Shown: piece by piece, positions 55,121-64,000 of the stretch
Numbering within the stretch: the first letter of the stretch is position 1
How the letters are laid out: each line of letters begins with the position of its first letter
Source: Balneolaceae bacterium
GTDB taxonomy: Bacteria; Bacteroidota; Rhodothermia; Balneolales; Balneolaceae
NCBI GenBank assembly: GCA_018401935.1
Contig: JAGYJQ010000004.1
Location: 62,001-126,000 of the forward strand
Length of the DNA: 64,000 nucleotides
Direction of reading: 5' to 3'
The notes under the pieces: model-generated
Database searches by the model: none
What the model was told of the DNA's origin: nothing
Seen by the model: only the letters and a program-made list of their open reading frames with translations
Translations under genes and position numbers: made by a program

Positions 55121-56590
55121 TTATTTTTTCAGCTTTAGAAACATATCTGCTACCTCCCTCATAATTCTGAAACTATACAATAAGCCAAAATAGAGAGCTA
55201 TGATCATTATGTTACGATAGCTGATGTCCATGAATGTGTTTGATAGGGTAGGTAAATTATTATTTAGAATATATAAAGATAGAGTTATCAAGAATGTTAC
55301 TAGATGTTTCCATTTGAAAGGTTGAATTCCGATTTGATACCACAGATAAATTATCTTTATAAGGTTGTATATAAATATTGTTAGTGCTGTTGCAATGGCA
55401 GCACCAGTAATTCCATATATTGGAATAAGTATTAGATTACTCGAAATACTTAATACGATTAGCAGAATATTTGCAATAAAATCAAATTGATAGAATTTAG
55501 ACATTCTAATAATACCGCCATTTAATCCACTAGCCATGTCAAATACCTTAGCTAGTCCAATTATGATAATTATATTTTTTGCTGCCATATAATTTGTGGG
55601 AAGTAGGCTTAAAATATAAGGTGTGTTTATTGTTATAAGTAACAATATGAATGTCCCCATTATCAACTGTATAAATGCAGATTTTTTATATATGATCTCG
55701 ACATTTTTATAGTCTTTAGTCTTAATTGATGAGGAAATAATAGGAACTGCAATTTGGAAAATGGATTTTTGAGGTATACCAATAACAGAAGAAAAGTAGA
55801 AGGCAACAGCATAAACTGAAACATCGGATAAATTTGAAAATGCCCCTAACATTACAATATCAATCCTGCCAATAATTACTGAAGTGATGCCTCCGAGAGT
55901 AGAAAATAAAGAATAGCGTATGATACTTGAGAGTAATAATGGGCGGAAAATAGTACTTGAAATTTTAAGATTCCATTGTCTTAGTTTGACTAGATAAAGG
56001 AATAACAAAAAAGGTGTTAGTACATGCGACAATACAAAAAACAATATGAAATTTTCAAAATTGATGTAACCTAATGCATATACTATAATTGAGGCTATTA
56101 TTGCAACTCTTTGTATAATTTCATGACTTGCAATTGAAAATACAGTGTGTTTAAGCCCTTTTAGGTATGACGTGAATAATTCATAGTAACTTCTTGCAAT
56201 AATTAACAATACAATTAGAAGGTAGTAGTCAACCAGTAATGTATTATTTGATTGTGAAGATGAAATAATCCAAGGTTTCGCTAATAAAAAGATGATACTT
56301 ACGAATAATGTACCTGCCAGGGTTATATAAAATGACATACCCAACAAGCCACTATTTAGAATATTATTTTCACGGTTAAAAAATGGAAAATACCGTACTA
56401 CTACACTTCTCATCCCAAGTGTACCAAACGTTGATGCTAATGCTCCATAACTGATCAGAATACGGGTCAAACCATATTCATTCGGTGTTAAGTAATTTGG
56501 GAAAATAAATATTGTCAAAATAGCGCCTAGTGCTGTACCACCATATAGTACTATTGAGTTAGAAACGCTTTTTTTTAAGATAATTCCCAT
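55121..56590 (-). CDS. Polysaccharide flippase (Wzx-like, MATE/MVF fold)
   Basis: 489 residues and about 14 hydrophobic helices. It starts SNSIVLYGGTALGAILTIFI and includes the periplasmic-side NEYGLTRILISYGALASTFG and SVVVRYFPFF; late helices include ITGAAIATALTIFIYNLIK, common in O-antigen flippases. These export lipid-linked oligosaccharides to the periplasm. The gene is very AT-rich compared with hisS. Its start codon lies only 31 bp from the start of the divergent sulfotransferase gene. Confidence 0.88.
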   Translation of the reverse strand: MGIILKKSVSNSIVLYGGTALGAILTIFIFPNYLTPNEYGLTRILISYGALASTFGTLGMRSVVVRYFPFFNRENNILNSGLLGMSFYITLAGTLFVSIIFLLAKPWIISSSQSNNTLLVDYYLLIVLLIIARSYYELFTSYLKGLKHTVFSIASHEIIQRVAIIASIIVYALGYINFENFILFFVLSHVLTPFLLFLYLVKLRQWNLKISSTIFRPLLLSSIIRYSLFSTLGGITSVIIGRIDIVMLGAFSNLSDVSVYAVAFYFSSVIGIPQKSIFQIAVPIISSSIKTKDYKNVEIIYKKSAFIQLIMGTFILLLITINTPYILSLLPTNYMAAKNIIIIIGLAKVFDMASGLNGGIIRMSKFYQFDFIANILLIVLSISSNLILIPIYGITGAAIATALTIFIYNLIKIIYLWYQIGIQPFKWKHLVTFLITLSLYILNNNLPTLSNTFMDISYRNIMIIALYFGLLYSFRIMREVADMFLKLKK

Positions 56591-56621
56591 ATTATGATAG
56601 ATTAAGTATATTCTGAGACTT

Positions 56622-57620
56622 ATGTCGAAGCATGAAAAATTGAGTAATATTATATTAATTGGCCCTCCAAGATCGGGCAGTTCCTGGATATCTAGTGTTT
56701 TGAGTCAATCATTAAACATGAAATTAATCCATGAACCTGATAACGAAAGGCATAATATTGTAGCTTGGATATTAAAAAAAAATAATCCAAGATTTCCCTC
56801 ATCAACTTGTATAAATTCTTCAGTACAATTACGAAACCTCTATGATTTAAGTTATTCGGGATGCCCTTTTAACCAGAAAAATTTACTTAACAGAATATTT
56901 AAACAAACGATAGGTTTTAGTGAATCAAAAGTTGAAAATACATTAAAAAAATATCAATTAGCAGATAGCCAAGATATTTTCACACTAAATAGAAAAGAAA
57001 AAATTATCCTAAAAATAAGCTTAGCAATACAAAGATTACATGGCTTTATCCTTAGAGATAAGAGACTGCTTATAAAAAGTGTACATGCTATTCACGGGTT
57101 TGACTACTTCCTAGGGCGAACTGATTTAGAGTCATTAATACTATTACGACATCCCGCTGCATTAGTTAATAGTTACCTTAGAATGAATTTATCTGATGCT
57201 AATAGAGTGTTATTTTCTTACTATGATATAAAGCAAGAAGATTCTCTGAAGATAAAAAAAAGATTAGATGAATTAGATGACCCAATAATTAGAGCATCTG
57301 CTCAGATATCTTACTTTTATCACAAAATTTCATTTTCTAAACAACTTAAAAATAACCAAATATTGTTTTTTGAAGATTTTAGTAAAAATGCTCTAAATGA
57401 ATTTGAGAAACTGCATCAAAGGTTAAATTTAGAGTGGGGTGAAGAAATTGAACAATACATTACAGAGACGAATACTGAGGGTTCTGGATTCAGTATAAAT
57501 AGAAAAATTGAGTGCCAAGCTGATAAGTGGCGAAATGAATTAAATGAAGAAAAAATTGATAAGATTAGAGAAGGATATTCAATGTATCAATCAAAATTTT
57601 ACCAAGATTTTTTGGCTTGA
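56622..57620 (+). CDS. PAPS-dependent sulfotransferase
   Basis: 332 residues. The 5'-phosphosulfate loop is LIGPPRSGSSWISSVLSQ (about residues 12-29), and the 3'-phosphate region is LILLRHPAALVNSYLRM (about 171-187). It should transfer sulfate from PAPS to a sugar or lipid hydroxyl or amine. The rest is lysine-, asparagine- and isoleucine-rich, reflecting the low GC content of the island. It overlaps the second sulfotransferase start by one base and begins 31 bp from the divergent flippase start. Confidence 0.82.
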   Translation: MSKHEKLSNIILIGPPRSGSSWISSVLSQSLNMKLIHEPDNERHNIVAWILKKNNPRFPSSTCINSSVQLRNLYDLSYSGCPFNQKNLLNRIFKQTIGFSESKVENTLKKYQLADSQDIFTLNRKEKIILKISLAIQRLHGFILRDKRLLIKSVHAIHGFDYFLGRTDLESLILLRHPAALVNSYLRMNLSDANRVLFSYYDIKQEDSLKIKKRLDELDDPIIRASAQISYFYHKISFSKQLKNNQILFFEDFSKNALNEFEKLHQRLNLEWGEEIEQYITETNTEGSGFSINRKIECQADKWRNELNEEKIDKIREGYSMYQSKFYQDFLA

Positions 57621-58429
57621 TGACTAGAATAATGATAGTAGGTTTGGCTCGTTCTGGTACCACCTTGTTACAAAAATTAATAGGATCTTTTGCCAATGTA
57701 CATACAATTCCAGAATCACATTATTTTGATTACCATTATCAAAACTACGATTTATTTGGCTTTAATTATTTTAAACAGAAAAGATATTATGATCCAAAAA
57801 CATTAAAAAAAAATATTGATGATTCACTGGTAGGCGTAAAAAATTTACATCCTAAGACTAAACAAGAATTTGTAGCTCAGTTTTTATTAATCTTAGATAA
57901 TATTGCAACTCGGCATGGTAAAGAAATATGGCTGGAAAAAACCCCAAGTCATTTAGAGTTTATACCGCTGATTGAATCATTTACTAAGGAAGTTGATTTT
58001 ATACACTTAATAAGGAATCCAATAGACAATGTCTCATCACTTGTTAGAGCATCAAGGCTATATCCAGATTACTTTAAACATCAAGATCTATATAAAGCTA
58101 TAAAAAGATACAGAAAATATTTAGCCGTCAGTTTAAAACACAGTATTAATAAAAAGCATCATTTAGTTAAATATGAAGATTTGTGTGATGATACTGAAAA
58201 ATATCTAACACACTTCCAACATTTATTTGAACTAAAAAAAGCGGAAATATCATGCCCAGAGAACATCGTGCAAGGACATGAAGAATGGAAGAACCAGAGT
58301 CTTAGTAATAATGTTGAAAAGCAAACAAATAAATTTGAAACATTAACAAAAAAAGAAATCAAATTGCTCAAAGATGTTATGCAAAAAGATTTGATTCAGT
58401 ATAAAAAAATAGAAGATGGTATCAACTAG
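57620..58429 (+). CDS. PAPS-dependent sulfotransferase (Sulfotransfer_3 type)
   Basis: 269 residues from the ATG at 57620, overlapping the previous stop by one base. The phosphosulfate loop is IMIVGLARSGTTLLQKLIGS; the 3'-phosphate motif is HLIRNPIDNVSSLVRASRL. It is not closely similar to the preceding sulfotransferase outside these motifs, so this is not a simple tandem duplication. The substrate is probably the locus polysaccharide. The following glycosyltransferase gene overlaps its end by 14 bp. Confidence 0.82.
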   Translation: MTRIMIVGLARSGTTLLQKLIGSFANVHTIPESHYFDYHYQNYDLFGFNYFKQKRYYDPKTLKKNIDDSLVGVKNLHPKTKQEFVAQFLLILDNIATRHGKEIWLEKTPSHLEFIPLIESFTKEVDFIHLIRNPIDNVSSLVRASRLYPDYFKHQDLYKAIKRYRKYLAVSLKHSINKKHHLVKYEDLCDDTEKYLTHFQHLFELKKAEISCPENIVQGHEEWKNQSLSNNVEKQTNKFETLTKKEIKLLKDVMQKDLIQYKKIEDGIN

Positions 58430-59612
58430 GAAAGTCAACAAGATTGGTATTATTGAACTGGACTATCATTTGGAATGCCTACAAAGCAGTATTCATCTAT
58501 TTGATAAAAGTGATATAGAATTGCACGTTTTTACTAAGAAAGAATTTTTCAATGAATTATCACCTACTTGTAGTAATCATAATGTGAAGTGGCATATACC
58601 AATTAATGATAACCCAAAAGCAGTAAATGACTTTTTAAACGACCAAAAAAAACTGCTTGAAAGCATGAACATGGTCCTATTCAACACTTTAGAATCTAAT
58701 TTCAAATTTTTTGTAAAATTCAAATTGTCTACCCATGTTGTTCTTAGGGTTCACAATGCATTTACATTTTTGGATCCTTTAGGGAATATAAAGTGGCCAT
58801 CTGATATTTTTAGCTTTTATAAGTTTATCTCTTACATTTTCAGAGAAGAAATAATAAAGCAACGAACATACTGGGCAAATCGATTTCTCTCGGAGGTTAA
58901 TTACATAATGTTTCCTAACGTAAACATTACAGAATTTACCTCAAAAAATATTACAAATGCTTACAAAACTAAATTACTTAGCCCTTTGCCAATGGCATAT
59001 CCAAAGCAAGTTAAGATAAAGCTAAAACATCAGTTAAATAAAGAATTAACCATAGTGCTGCCAGGATCAGTTGATCCAAAGCGAAGAAACTACAGTGAAA
59101 TATACGAGGCATTTAAGAGTTTAAGTGTGAAATCTAAAAAAAAAATTAAAGTAATTTTTTTAGGGAAATCCAATTTATTTGGTGCGAATTATTTAAAGAA
59201 ATCTTTTAAAAATATTAGCTCAGAAAAACTTGAAGTTATGTTTTTTGAGAAGCGAATTCCTATGGCTGAGTATGAAAACTATATGAATTCATGTGATGTA
59301 ATGTTAAATCCTATCAAGATCAACACAAGCTATCATATATTCAAAGAGATCTATGGTAAAACAAAAGTCAGTGGTGCAGTTACTGATATAGTCAGATATG
59401 GTAGACCACTAATTTTACCGAATACCTATGATATTGATATGGATTTGAAAAGTTGTTGTCTTACTTATAGTAATAAGGATGATTTAATTACCACAATCAT
59501 GAACTTAACAGATAATAGGTACTTAAACAGCTTGAATGATTCAGTCAATAGCACCTTGCTGAAAATTAAAAAAAACAACTATCTTGGTGTTATGCTAAAT
59601 GAAATAACCTAA
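58416..59612 (+). CDS. Glycosyltransferase, GT-B fold
   Basis: 398 residues. The N-terminal half (KIGIIELDYHLECLQSS, ELHVFTKKEFF) and the C-terminal half beginning LTIVLPGSVDPKRRNYSEIY look like the two Rossmann domains of GT-B enzymes. The nucleotide-sugar region probably includes SCDVMLNPIKIN, EIYGKTKVSGAVTD and RYGRPLILPN. I cannot assign donor or acceptor. Composition is strongly AT-rich (12 G/C in 60 at 59101-59160). It overlaps the sulfotransferase gene, so the three form one transcript. Confidence 0.68.
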   Translation: MVSTRKVNKIGIIELDYHLECLQSSIHLFDKSDIELHVFTKKEFFNELSPTCSNHNVKWHIPINDNPKAVNDFLNDQKKLLESMNMVLFNTLESNFKFFVKFKLSTHVVLRVHNAFTFLDPLGNIKWPSDIFSFYKFISYIFREEIIKQRTYWANRFLSEVNYIMFPNVNITEFTSKNITNAYKTKLLSPLPMAYPKQVKIKLKHQLNKELTIVLPGSVDPKRRNYSEIYEAFKSLSVKSKKKIKVIFLGKSNLFGANYLKKSFKNISSEKLEVMFFEKRIPMAEYENYMNSCDVMLNPIKINTSYHIFKEIYGKTKVSGAVTDIVRYGRPLILPNTYDIDMDLKSCCLTYSNKDDLITTIMNLTDNRYLNSLNDSVNSTLLKIKKNNYLGVMLNEIT

Positions 59613-59621
59613 ATTAACCCT

Positions 59622-60260
59622 ATGCAAAGCATTCAATCAGTACTTATTCTAGCTCCTCATACCGACGATGCAGAGTTGGGCTGTGGTGGAACCATAGCAC
59701 GCTTTTTAGAGGAGGGTAAGAAGATTTATGTAGCCGCTTTTTCAACGGCCAGAGCATCCCTACCTGAAGGTGCCAATCCAGATCAACTAAGGGATGAATT
59801 CCATGCGTCTATGGATATTCTAGGTATCCCAAAAGAGCAGTTATTTGTCTATGATTATCAGGTGAGAATGCTGTCCTATCACCGGCAAGAAGTTCTTGAA
59901 GAATTAGTAAAGTTACGCCAGCAAATCAAACCAGATTTAGTACTAGTTCCCTCTGGTAGTGATCTGCATCAGGATCATCAAGTAGTTCATAATGAAGGAT
60001 TGCGAGCGTTTAAGCAGGTTAGTATCTGGGGATATGAACTTCCATGGAATCACATCAGCTTTGACACTCAGGCGTTTGTACCACTAGAGCAACGGCACCT
60101 AGATCTAAAGTGGAAGATGATGCAAGCCTACGATTCACAGTTCGAGAAACAACGTCCTTATTTTACAAAAGAATTTATTGAGGGCTTAGCCCGGGTTCGT
60201 GGCGTACAAGTCAATGAGGCTTTTGCTGAGGCTTTTGAAGTCAAAAGACTTAAATTATAA
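59622..60260 (+). CDS. PIG-L family N-deacetylase
   Basis: 212 residues. The metal motif APHTDDAELGCGGT (His13, Asp15/Asp16) and the distal HQDHQVVHNEGLRAF match PIG-L/LmbE zinc deacetylases, which remove N-acetyl groups from GlcNAc-type sugars. It has no signal peptide, so it works in the cytoplasm on nucleotide- or lipid-linked sugars. Base composition is much higher in GC than in the gene 9 bp upstream, so the junction near 59615 is a compositional boundary. LpxD-like, ACP and ligase genes follow. Confidence 0.9.
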   Translation: MQSIQSVLILAPHTDDAELGCGGTIARFLEEGKKIYVAAFSTARASLPEGANPDQLRDEFHASMDILGIPKEQLFVYDYQVRMLSYHRQEVLEELVKLRQQIKPDLVLVPSGSDLHQDHQVVHNEGLRAFKQVSIWGYELPWNHISFDTQAFVPLEQRHLDLKWKMMQAYDSQFEKQRPYFTKEFIEGLARVRGVQVNEAFAEAFEVKRLKL

Positions 60261-60295
60261 GTGCTTTTTCTATCCTAACCTGAGTTTCTATATCT

Positions 60296-61219
60296 ATGGC
60301 CAATAAACAGCCTTTTTTCTTGGATAACCTATTAGATGTACTGCGCGGAGCCTACAGCCGTGAGGGTTTGGCTGATAATCATCAATTACACATCGTGGCT
60401 TCCATAGACGATAAAAAATACGATCCTGGCAAGAAAGCCATTACATGGTGTCATCCTAATGCAAATAACAAACAAGAGATGGTTGAACAAACTCAAGCAA
60501 CTGTTATTGTGTGTGATGAGAGCATAGTGTTGAGTTCGAAAGGTCAATCCACAAAGACACTGATTAAGGTGGTGGATCCGAAACTTGCCTTTACCAGGAT
60601 GATTCGATCAATCACTGTTGACCAGAATGAACCTGGAGTACATCCTAGTTGCGTAGTGCATCCGGAAGCAGAGATAGATCCATCGGCTAGTATAGGACCT
60701 AATTGCACTATTGGAAAGTGCGTAATTGGAGCTAGAACCAATATTCATGGTAATTGTTTCCTCTACGATGGGGTGGAAATTGGAGAGGAGGTAGTCATTG
60801 AAGCAGGTGTCGTTTTAGGTGCTGAAGGCTTCGGATTGGCAAAAACTTCTGAAGGGGCATGGGAGCGATTTCCTCATCTTGGTGGGGTGCGATTATCCAA
60901 TCGGGTTGAGGTAGGAGCCGGTAGTACCATTGACCGAGGCGCGATTCAGGATACGGTGATCGGTGAAGGAACTAAAATTTCCAAAGCGGTACACATCTCA
61001 CATAATGTGAAAATAGGGAAGCATTGCCTAATTACTGGGGCAGTTTCTATCGCTGGTTCTACCACTATTGGGGATCATGTTTGGCTTAGCCCTGGAGTAA
61101 CTATTTTGAATAAACTTAGTATTGGGGATCATGCTTTTGTTGCAATTGGTGCAACGGTAACCCAATCTATTCCTGATCACTACCAAGCAATTGGGCGAAA
61201 AATTATTCCTAAAACCTAA
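60296..61219 (+). CDS. lpxD: LpxD-like N-acyltransferase (left-handed beta-helix)
   Basis: 307 residues. The N-terminal 100 residues form a divergent substrate-binding domain; from VHPSCVVHPEAEIDPSASIG onward hexapeptide repeats make a left-handed beta-helix. Landmarks of LpxD are GAEGFGLAKTSEGAW, STIDRGAIQDTVIGEGTKIS and HISHNVKIGKHC, where His236 matches the catalytic His. LpxD transfers a hydroxyacyl group from ACP to the amine of a UDP-glucosamine derivative. The position between a deacetylase and an ACP, far from other lpx genes, suggests a specialised acyltransferase for a surface sugar instead of lipid A. Confidence 0.8.
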   Translation: MANKQPFFLDNLLDVLRGAYSREGLADNHQLHIVASIDDKKYDPGKKAITWCHPNANNKQEMVEQTQATVIVCDESIVLSSKGQSTKTLIKVVDPKLAFTRMIRSITVDQNEPGVHPSCVVHPEAEIDPSASIGPNCTIGKCVIGARTNIHGNCFLYDGVEIGEEVVIEAGVVLGAEGFGLAKTSEGAWERFPHLGGVRLSNRVEVGAGSTIDRGAIQDTVIGEGTKISKAVHISHNVKIGKHCLITGAVSIAGSTTIGDHVWLSPGVTILNKLSIGDHAFVAIGATVTQSIPDHYQAIGRKIIPKT

Positions 61220-61227
61220 CAACGGTA

Positions 61228-61452
61228 ATGAACAACATAGAAGAACTGATTCGACAAACACTCATGTTGTCAGCAGATACACAAATTAACGACCAAACTA
61301 CTCCTCAAGACATACCGGCATGGGACTCCCTAGGTCATATCAATATTATAACCGCTATCGAAGATGAATACGATATTGAAATTACCCCTGAACAAATAGC
61401 TAAGCTTGAATCGGTAGCTCATTTCAAAGAACTAATCGAAGAATTATCCTAA
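61228..61452 (+). CDS. Acyl carrier protein
   Basis: 74 residues. The phosphopantetheine site is Ser34 in AWDSLGHINIIT, followed by the acidic helix AIEDEYDIEITPEQIAKLE. It is distinct from the housekeeping AcpP type (DSLD motif has Gly at the position after Leu). It lies 8 bp after the LpxD-like gene and 5 bp before the ligase, so a dedicated acyl-transfer role in this locus is likely. Confidence 0.92.
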   Translation: MNNIEELIRQTLMLSADTQINDQTTPQDIPAWDSLGHINIITAIEDEYDIEITPEQIAKLESVAHFKELIEELS

Positions 61453-61457
61453 GCGGA

Positions 61458-62927
61458 ATGTCAACGCCCAATTCCATTATTCGGCTTTTTTTTCAAGTAG
61501 TTGAAGAAAACCCGAATAAAACAGCCATTATTTGGAAGGAGGATTCGCTAAGCTATACACAACTTGCGAAGTGGGTGGTAGCATATGCCAACTTTTTTAC
61601 AGCTAAAGGGGTTAAACGGGGAGATAGAATATTATTTCATGGGCAAACATCCTTACGCTTTCCAGCTATTTATTTAGCCTGCCATCGAATAGGGGCTGTT
61701 GCTGTACCTGTTGATGCGAGGATGACACCAGCAGAACGAAATGAATTATTTAATCAAATTGAACCAGCGATAGCATTATTCCCAGGCTCCATAGAAGCTC
61801 ATTTCGCCTTTGAAGAGCTGGATCAGGATATTGATACGCATCAACCAGAAGTAATAAACCCTTTTCCTGAAGGCAATGAGATTGCAGATATTTTATTTAC
61901 CACAGGTACGACGGGTTCTCGAAAAGGGGTACAGCTTACCCATGAAAATATCTTTGCCGGGGCTGCCAACTCAAACGAGTTCATAAGGAATACCGCTCAC
62001 GATAAAGAAATAATCCCACTACCACTACATCATGCCTTTGGACTTCGAAGGTTACGGGTAAACTTGATGATGGGTGCGACAGCTATTTTAGAAGAAGGGT
62101 TTATGTTTCCCCAGCGTTTTTTTGATCATATTTCAAAAGGGGCTACTGGTTTATGTATGGTACCCACCGGATTTCAAGTGGTGAAAAAATTGATGAAAGA
62201 TCGTTACGTACCTTATTTTCAGAAGTTACATTATATTGAATTTGGTAGCATGCCCATGCCAGCTGAGCAGAAGCGAGAATTGGCGGAACAGCTTCCATCC
62301 ACTCGCATTTGTATGCATTATGGGTTGACGGAGGTCGCGGCCAGTATTTTTACCGAATTTCATGACGATGCAGCCCATTTGGATACCTTGGGTAAGCCGT
62401 CGCCTAATGTAGATGTTGCTGTTATGGATGCATCGATGAGCCCTGTATCCGTTGGGGAGCTAGGTGAAATTGCGGTACGTGGATCCATACAAACCCCCGG
62501 ATATTGGAATAACCCGGAGCGAAGTCGGCAGGTTCTGGTAGAGGGATGGTTTAGAACGGGAGATCTTGCGGTTCTAACCCACAGCGGGCACATTCAAATG
62601 AAAGGTAGGAACGATGATGTTATCAATATTGGGGGTAAAAAAGTATTCCCTCAGGAGATTGAACAACATCTTATGAGCCACCCAACTGTCCTGGATTGTG
62701 CTTGTTGCTCGGTGGCGAATGAACTACTGGGGGAACAAATACAGGCATTTATCGTATCTAATGATAAAAAGCTCAGCAAACAGGAGTGGGTTAATATTTT
62801 GCGTGAATCGCTCGATTCGTATAAAATTCCAACGCAATTTGAATATGTTGATAGCATACCCTATACCAATACTGGTAAGAAAAAAAGAGAGGCGTTGGTT
62901 AACGAAAGGGCTCGCAAAAAGCCATAA
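61458..62927 (+). CDS. Acyl/aryl-AMP ligase (ANL superfamily)
   Basis: 489 residues. Adenylate-forming motifs are A3 LFTTGTTGSRKGVQLTHEN, A5 MHYGLTEVAASI, A7 WFRTGDLAVL, A8 GRNDDVINIGGKKVFPQEIE and the catalytic Lys near NTGKKKR. It activates a carboxylic acid with ATP and loads it on CoA or a carrier protein. With an ACP gene 5 bp upstream, loading that ACP is likely. Substrate unknown; the active-site pocket cannot be read by eye. It ends 1 bp from the convergent glycosyltransferase. Confidence 0.9.
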   Translation: MSTPNSIIRLFFQVVEENPNKTAIIWKEDSLSYTQLAKWVVAYANFFTAKGVKRGDRILFHGQTSLRFPAIYLACHRIGAVAVPVDARMTPAERNELFNQIEPAIALFPGSIEAHFAFEELDQDIDTHQPEVINPFPEGNEIADILFTTGTTGSRKGVQLTHENIFAGAANSNEFIRNTAHDKEIIPLPLHHAFGLRRLRVNLMMGATAILEEGFMFPQRFFDHISKGATGLCMVPTGFQVVKKLMKDRYVPYFQKLHYIEFGSMPMPAEQKRELAEQLPSTRICMHYGLTEVAASIFTEFHDDAAHLDTLGKPSPNVDVAVMDASMSPVSVGELGEIAVRGSIQTPGYWNNPERSRQVLVEGWFRTGDLAVLTHSGHIQMKGRNDDVINIGGKKVFPQEIEQHLMSHPTVLDCACCSVANELLGEQIQAFIVSNDKKLSKQEWVNILRESLDSYKIPTQFEYVDSIPYTNTGKKKREALVNERARKKP

Positions 62928-62928
62928 A

Positions 62929-64000
62929 CTAGCTAATAAGCTCCTTCATAGTCGAATCTAATTGCTGAGTTAGCTCAGTGAAGCTGTATTTCTGCATAGA
63001 TTCGTTTCTGATATTAAATACCGATTCATTGCGAACGAACGCCTCAAAACAGCTGAGTAAATACGTGTATACACCTTCTGTATCGGCTCTATCAAAAAAT
63101 TGACCAATGCCCGTAGTGGTAACCACCTCCGCAGCGGCGCCTTGGCTAGGGCCAATGCCAAGAACTTTAGAGCCAGAAATCATGTATTCAAATACTTTAG
63201 TTGATAAGGCATAACTACTGTTTTTCGAATTTCCTATGGATAAGAGTAACAGATCACTCTTTGGTAGTAAGGCCATCATATCTGAGTGCTGAATGAATTC
63301 GTTCTTTTTAAAGGTGATATTATCACAAATCGACTCTATTTCTGCTTCTACATCAGAATCCAAACTCCCAAAGAATTCGAAACGTATTCGATGTGCCATT
63401 TCAGGAGTTTCATTTTCGATTCGGCTTAAGGCTTCTAAAAAAGCAGTGGGTTTCTGGTTTATTTTTAGACTTCCAAAATATCGAATCGTAAAGGCTTCGT
63501 TTCGGTGAGGTATATTTTCTTGAGCCTGTATATGATCCGGATCATACCCATTGGTTATTCGCTTCATTTTGGCCCTTACAGAATCGGGTAATTCATCAAA
63601 AAAACCATGATTTACCACCGTGATCCTATCGGCAGAGCGAAGAACTTTTTTTTCTAATCGCTTATTTTTTTTCGCCGCTAATGGACCCAAAGGTGTTTGA
63701 TCATAGTAGTATATATTGGTCCATGGATCTCTAAAATCAGCTAACCATGGGATGGCACTCCAAGAAGCCAGTTGTTGCGCTATTCGATGAGTGGTGGGAG
63801 GTGGTGAGGTGGAAAAAATGATATCGGGAGCTTCTTGCTTGATTACCTTTTTTCCTAAAGGAACAGCGAACCATTTCCACGTTAGTTTGGCATCTGGGAT
63901 GAGAATATTTAACCGCAACCAAACAGCTATTTTGGCAAGTAATCCTTTATGTTTAGCGTAAAATATAGAAGGGTTGTGAGTAATACTAGCTTTGCCAGAA
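62929..64000 (-). CDS. Glycosyltransferase family 4-like protein (5' end outside window)
   Basis: The frame is open from the right edge, so the true start is beyond 64000; at least 356 residues are visible. The N-terminal domain piece IIFSTSPPPTTHRIAQQLAS and PWLADFRDPWTNIYYYD is typical of GT4 glycosyltransferases of polysaccharide loci; the C-terminal domain has FTIRYFGSLKINQKPTAFLE and the donor-binding FEYMISGSKVLGIGP. The TTG at 63918 is not a real start. It converges with the ligase with 1 bp between stops. Confidence 0.82.
   Translation of the reverse strand, partial: SGKASITHNPSIFYAKHKGLLAKIAVWLRLNILIPDAKLTWKWFAVPLGKKVIKQEAPDIIFSTSPPPTTHRIAQQLASWSAIPWLADFRDPWTNIYYYDQTPLGPLAAKKNKRLEKKVLRSADRITVVNHGFFDELPDSVRAKMKRITNGYDPDHIQAQENIPHRNEAFTIRYFGSLKINQKPTAFLEALSRIENETPEMAHRIRFEFFGSLDSDVEAEIESICDNITFKKNEFIQHSDMMALLPKSDLLLLSIGNSKNSSYALSTKVFEYMISGSKVLGIGPSQGAAAEVVTTTGIGQFFDRADTEGVYTYLLSCFEAFVRNESVFNIRNESMQKYSFTELTQQLDSTMKELIS

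Follow-up and report, generated by a model that had tools for sequence, protein, structure and literature searches.

A conserved deacetylase, LpxD-like acyltransferase, acyl carrier protein and ligase gene set in Balneolaceae: a probable N-acylation module for a surface glycan

Introduction

What does an LpxD-like acyltransferase do in a bacterium in which LpxC, LpxB and WaaA are not found? This question is raised by a polysaccharide locus in a marine Balneolaceae metagenome-assembled genome (MAG; 2.6 Mb, 94% complete). The DNA analyzed here (the window, a whole stretch of 64,000 nucleotides, G000:C34:62001-126000) carries genes for a PIG-L deacetylase, an LpxD-like acyltransferase, an acyl carrier protein (ACP) and an adenosine monophosphate (AMP)-forming ligase, in this order and all on the plus strand, at window positions 59622-62927. 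Here, we report that the four genes are conserved together and probably constitute an ACP-dependent module that N-acylates a conserved amino sugar of a surface glycan.

Results

Four genes conserved together

The first-pass annotation of the window described four consecutive plus-strand genes separated by 35, 8 and 5 bp, and the open reading frame coordinates agree with this exactly:

59622..60260, plus strand: PIG-L/LmbE-family de-N-acetylase (PIGL), 212 aa; PF02585, zinc motifs
60296..61219, plus strand: LpxD-like left-handed beta-helix acyltransferase (LPXDL), 307 aa; hexapeptide repeats, LpxD profiles, catalytic His236
61228..61452, plus strand: dedicated acyl carrier protein (ACP), 74 aa; PF00550, WDSLGH
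61458..62927, plus strand: acyl-AMP (ANL) ligase (LIG), 489 aa; PF00501, PF13193

The LpxD-like protein was found at 50% identity or more in 13 of the 92 family genomes, representing four genera, and the order PIGL-LPXDL-ACP-LIG is kept in every one of them. Orthologues of the ligase, at the same identity threshold, occur in exactly the same 13 genomes. The arrangement is not due to chance, because it recurs in 13 genomes of four genera; since eight of these belong to one genus and the locus is inherited in place, the 13 do not represent independent events. The four genes are thus conserved together, as expected of the single module that had been proposed. Among 395 genomes sampled across the phylum, no additional orthologue of the ligase was detected at E 1e-110, and one more LpxD-like protein (G251) was found, both counts being lower bounds since only a few candidates per genome were scored. 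Searching plasmids for the ligase returned no match.

Enzyme families and catalytic motifs

Profile scores and catalytic motifs agree with the four family assignments of the first-pass annotation, apart from the N-terminal domain of the LpxD-like protein, which scored below its cut-off (see below). PIG-L matched PF02585 with 75.8 bits (cut-off 28.2), and its zinc motifs PHxDD and HxDH are kept in 15 of 15 relatives. It was rejected as the bacillithiol deacetylase BshB1, with 72 bits for TIGR04001 against a cut-off of 182.5. ACP matched PF00550 with 22.6 bits (cut-off 20.8), and the phosphopantetheine serine lies in a WDSLGH motif present in 13/13, so that score and serine both agree with a type II ACP. 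The only PDB match of this ACP was 2lml, a 'putative acyl carrier protein' (E 2e-7), which we take to be GmACP3 of Geobacter, encoded among lipopolysaccharide genes; it belongs to another organism and is not known to be part of a four-gene set of this kind.

The ligase matched PF00501 and PF13193 with 210.7 and 46.9 bits, respectively. Its phosphate loop and the motifs YGLTE, TGDL and GRxDD are kept in 13/13, and the C-terminal GKK motif in 11/13, the exceptions being a copy truncated where its contig ends and another that appears frame-disrupted. The ligase C-terminus looks frame-disrupted in one MAG (L113:4219-5667), reflecting either error or decay. PDB and fold matches were acyl- and aryl-coenzyme A (CoA) ligases and adenylation domains of nonribosomal peptide synthetases, and the best profile matches were fatty-acyl ligase models. 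The A4 motif, PLHHAFG, may resemble that of a ligase for an acid other than an amino acid, and three invariant arginines near it might bind a polar acid. The conserved adjacency of the ACP gene is the sole argument for a predicted acyl-ACP synthetase rather than an acyl-CoA synthetase.

The LpxD-like protein lies outside the lipid A enzymes

The LpxD-like protein scored 88.4 bits for hexapeptide repeats and 23.1 bits for the LpxD N-domain PF04613, under the cut-off of 30.8. It passed the NCBIfam LpxD subfamily model PRK00892 (246 vs 207 bits) and failed the lipid A LpxD equivalog TIGR01853 (208 vs 242.5 bits). LpxDs were the best PDB sequence matches and also the top fold matches of the predicted structure; of the latter, only this ranking was used, because the model has low global accuracy (predicted template modelling score, pTM, 0.53). 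In detail, the catalytic histidine (His236, equivalent to E. coli His239) is kept in 13/13. The position of E. coli His276 is lysine in 13/13 and is histidine in 36 of 37 lipid A LpxDs, and that of E. coli Asn233 is lysine in the LpxD-like protein. At the uracil-stacking columns F41 and Y47, where the loop alignment is uncertain, the 13 proteins have Trp (13/13) and Lys or Arg (13/13). All 13 stop just past the beta-helix and lack the C-terminal helical extension.

We built a quick tree with references picked by their match to the window protein: 37 LpxDs encoded beside lpxA or lpxC, 36 unlabelled LpxDs and five flavobacterial second LpxDs (LpxD2). The 13 module proteins formed one group outside the 37 lipid A LpxDs (96% in the Shimodaira-Hasegawa-like approximate likelihood ratio test, SH-aLRT), so that the module copy separates from lipid A copies, a point that the first-pass annotation had suggested testing with a tree. 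LpxD2 was a separate clade, and identity with it was rejected. In one relative, G007, a further LpxD-like protein, highly divergent at 31%, is encoded next to an aminotransferase (L105:7697-8626).

In the genome that contains the window, we detected no LpxC, LpxB or WaaA and no second LpxD. LpxC was found in 0 of the 92 Balneolaceae genomes searched, and the same search was positive in control genomes. Balneolaceae may have no lipid A at all; the open-access literature searched held no direct report on this.

A resident module beside an exchangeable cassette

The genes surrounding the module are as follows:

55121..56590, minus strand: polysaccharide flippase (MATE/Wzx-like) of the low-GC cassette; PF01943, 31.7 bits
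56622-57620 and 57617-58429, plus strand: sulfotransferase-like ST1 and ST2 of the low-GC cassette; PF00685, 22.3 bits (cut-off 22), and PF13469, 68.9 bits
58416..59612, plus strand: glycosyltransferase (GT) of the low-GC cassette, 9 bp 5' of PIG-L
62929..63999, minus strand: GT4-like glycosyltransferase (GT2), convergent with the module and its conserved neighbour; complete at 437 aa past the window end (L101:930-2243)

The same-strand run comprises seven genes, that is, ST1, ST2 and GT (56622-59612) and the four module genes; beyond it, on the opposite strand, lie the flippase and hisS. The proposed module extent therefore stood for the four genes but not for its left limit, as the run starts at ST1 and only 9 bp separate GT from PIGL. 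On the 3' side, the convergent GT4-like glycosyltransferase and a YfhO-like membrane protein are followed by gatC, HPr and ptsI. The convergent glycosyltransferase was present in every one of the 13 genomes whose contig reaches it. Likewise, all contigs that extend far enough on the other side carry hisS and a flippase, except that in G039 no flippase was recognizable by similarity to that of the window.

Guanine-cytosine (GC) content is 43-44% in PIGL, LPXDL and LIG, 37% in ACP and 42% in the window. In the cassette it is 30% in the flippase and 29% in ST1/ST2, and 29-30% over flippase, sulfotransferases and glycosyltransferase. The interval between hisS and PIG-L differs in the readable relatives, which had no good match to ST1, ST2 or GT; the intervals scanned encode DegT aminotransferases, hexapeptide transferases, sulfotransferases and various glycosyltransferases. 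The GC contrast and the differing interval genes indicate that the acyl module is the resident part of the locus and that the repeat-unit genes (the cassette at window positions 55121-59612) are exchangeable. Because the module is conserved and has as neighbours a YfhO-like membrane protein and a glycosyltransferase that is itself conserved, the modification more probably affects a conserved portion of the glycan than the variable repeat.

Deacetylase and acyl-transfer genes recur in other arrangements

Parts of the module are combined differently elsewhere. PIG-L, an LpxD-like protein and the glycosyltransferase occur together in G006 and G124, where no ACP or ligase was found. In G251, which belongs to another family, a CE4-type deacetylase gene, recognized by a weak score barely above the cut-off, lies 2 bp upstream of the LpxD-like gene (L171, G251:C39). 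Next to NeuB- and NeuC-like genes, G045 combines a GNAT-like protein, an ACP, a ligase (39% identical to the module ligase) and a CE4 deacetylase (L186, G045:C68), an acyl module in what looks like a nonulosonic acid locus; the GNAT-like protein, which had no Pfam match, and the NeuB- and NeuC-like proteins were recognized by eye. The recurrence of deacetylases beside LpxD-like or ACP and ligase genes in different families is the best argument that deacetylation and acyl transfer belong to one pathway, and it supports the logic of deacetylation followed by re-acylation.

Some further observations concern these loci. The G251 locus also contains DegT, FemAB-like and radical SAM genes. A second PIG-L, 43% identical, is encoded in the window's own genome (L102, G000:C11:1-14000) with KASIII, SDR and hexapeptide proteins, adjoining UDP-ManNAc3NAcA-type, WbpA/B/D/E/I-like genes; this is possibly another acyl-amino-sugar pathway.

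Discussion

From the gene content, order, motifs and conservation, together with the absence of lipid A genes, we infer the following reactions, step order and substrate. The ligase would adenylate a free carboxylic acid and load it onto holo-ACP. PIG-L would remove the N-acetyl group from a residue of the N-acetylglucosamine (GlcNAc) type, most likely in a lipid-linked or otherwise glycosylated intermediate built with the neighbouring conserved GT4-like transferase, and the LpxD-like enzyme, via its catalytic histidine, would move the acyl group from ACP onto the freed amine. The predicted product is an N-acylated amino sugar, conserved and close to the base of the glycan, the outer part being set by the exchangeable upstream cassette. 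This route, which the first-pass annotation had already outlined, gives the best fit to the genes; PIG-L is not strictly tied to the other three.

Several points weigh against the N-acylation module. An acyl-CoA product or O-acylation would also be compatible with the sequences. A uridine diphosphate (UDP)-sugar substrate is doubtful because the N-domain loop that binds uracil in LpxD appears to be altered. Moreover, loci of this kind in G023, G027 and G038 (at least 70% identity) and in G033 and G040 (49% identity) have PIG-L but lack the other three genes, so that PIG-L may serve a separate step; these loci weaken the idea that it is an obligate partner of the acyl genes. Within the genus, PIG-L is 90-99% identical, whereas LPXDL, ACP and LIG fall to 52-67% in one subclade, with a step from 90-91% (PIGL) to 62-63% (LPXDL). 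Given this break, PIG-L may move together with the upstream cassette rather than with the acyl genes. An exchange of the acyl cassette as one unit within the genus was rejected, because PtsI downstream diverges too; a recombination edge near PIG-L is the more likely explanation, and the break may mark it. As a separate observation, WbqC and sulfotransferase genes lie beside PIG-L in G023, G027 and G038 (L146, L147, L148), where the acyl genes are missing, and may provide an alternative modification.

The lone PIG-L genes and the PIGL/LPXDL identity break would be accommodated if the locus had two functions, the acyl trio N-acylating an aminotransferase-derived, nucleotide-linked amino sugar by chemistry like that of perosamine or viosamine, and PIG-L deacetylating a different residue. 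Several relatives indeed have a DegT aminotransferase in the cassette. However, the cassette of the window has no aminotransferase, yet all four genes are kept; PIG-L accompanies the acyl genes in all 13 genomes, and pairs of a deacetylase and an LpxD-like protein recur in G124, G006 and G251. We therefore regard two separate functions as unlikely. That the LpxD-like protein simply serves lipid A biosynthesis is highly improbable. It is the sole LpxD homologue of the genome and exceeds the PRK00892 cut-off, but it does not cluster with the lipid A enzymes, a combination that the first-pass annotation had held fatal to its proposal only if both halves were true. LpxC, LpxB and WaaA are absent, TIGR01853 was failed, and lysine replaces His276; barring a non-homologous lipid A pathway, the lipid A role was thus rejected.

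Absence of lipid A genes fits a different role, in which the module supplies a lipid anchor in place of lipid A. A fatty acid would be loaded by the ligase, and the action of PIG-L and the LpxD-like protein would yield an N-fatty-acyl glucosamine that anchors the polysaccharide by its reducing end in an outer membrane without lipid A. This would be a special case of the N-acylation module, with which its chemistry overlaps. The module's place within the conserved portion of the locus and the fatty-acyl ligase models as best matches of the ligase are consistent with it, and there is a precedent in the Vi antigen, whose acylated reducing-end N-acetylhexosamine anchor is made by an ACP-dependent enzyme (PMC9597891). 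On the other hand, a module present in only 13/92 family genomes cannot be a general replacement. The beta-helix is shorter than that of E. coli LpxD and without its C-terminal helices, the surroundings of the active site differ, and only one acyltransferase was seen in the module. A lipid anchor is accordingly quite doubtful. We would extend it only with little confidence to lipid-A-less outer-membrane bacteria, where the set might make N-acyl-glucosamine at the base of a polysaccharide as an independent counterpart of LpxC-LpxD and possibly a glycolipid anchor. N-acylation of a conserved glycan sugar, without commitment to an anchor, remains our preferred reading.

Each of the enzyme families is familiar. 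Their combination, PIG-L and an LpxD-like protein with their own ACP and ligase, in a family without a detectable lipid A pathway has not previously been reported in the open-access literature searched. Individual features are shared with several systems. In Nod factor synthesis, NodB deacetylates and NodA then N-acylates from a dedicated ACP, NodF; NodB is a CE4 enzyme, NodA is not known to be LpxD-like, and the route has no known ligase. In Vibrio cholerae O1, perosamine is described as N-acylated with tetronate, the genes being VC0248-0252 (PMC3441752). This wbe system likewise uses an ACP and an AMP-ligase for N-acylation of an amino sugar of a surface polysaccharide, a likeness in concept and by description, but an aminotransferase, rather than a deacetylase, provides its amine; no sugar aminotransferase is present in the locus of the window, and some relatives have one. 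Among the tetronate genes, wbeK presumably encodes the ACP and wbeL the ligase, and the acyltransferase is not known as LpxD-like. In teicoplanin biosynthesis, a PIG-L-type deacetylase acts on N-acetylglucosamine (LmbE review, PMC4101496). The enzyme is of the same family as that of the module, but it serves an antibiotic pathway. Re-acylation there is carried out by a different, CoA-dependent acyltransferase, and the final sugar carries a different acyl group.

The LpxC-LpxD step of lipid A synthesis (Raetz pathway) likewise consists of deacetylation of a GlcNAc-type residue followed by N-acylation from ACP, catalysed by a beta-helix enzyme that has a conserved histidine. The module differs in having PIG-L for LpxC, its own ACP and ligase, altered residues at the substrate site and no C-terminal helices. 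If our reading is correct, the deacetylate-then-N-acylate logic of lipid A has been built separately for surface glycans, the module would be a route to new N-acyl sugars, and the finding would be relevant to the construction and anchoring of the surface in lipid-A-less Balneolaceae.

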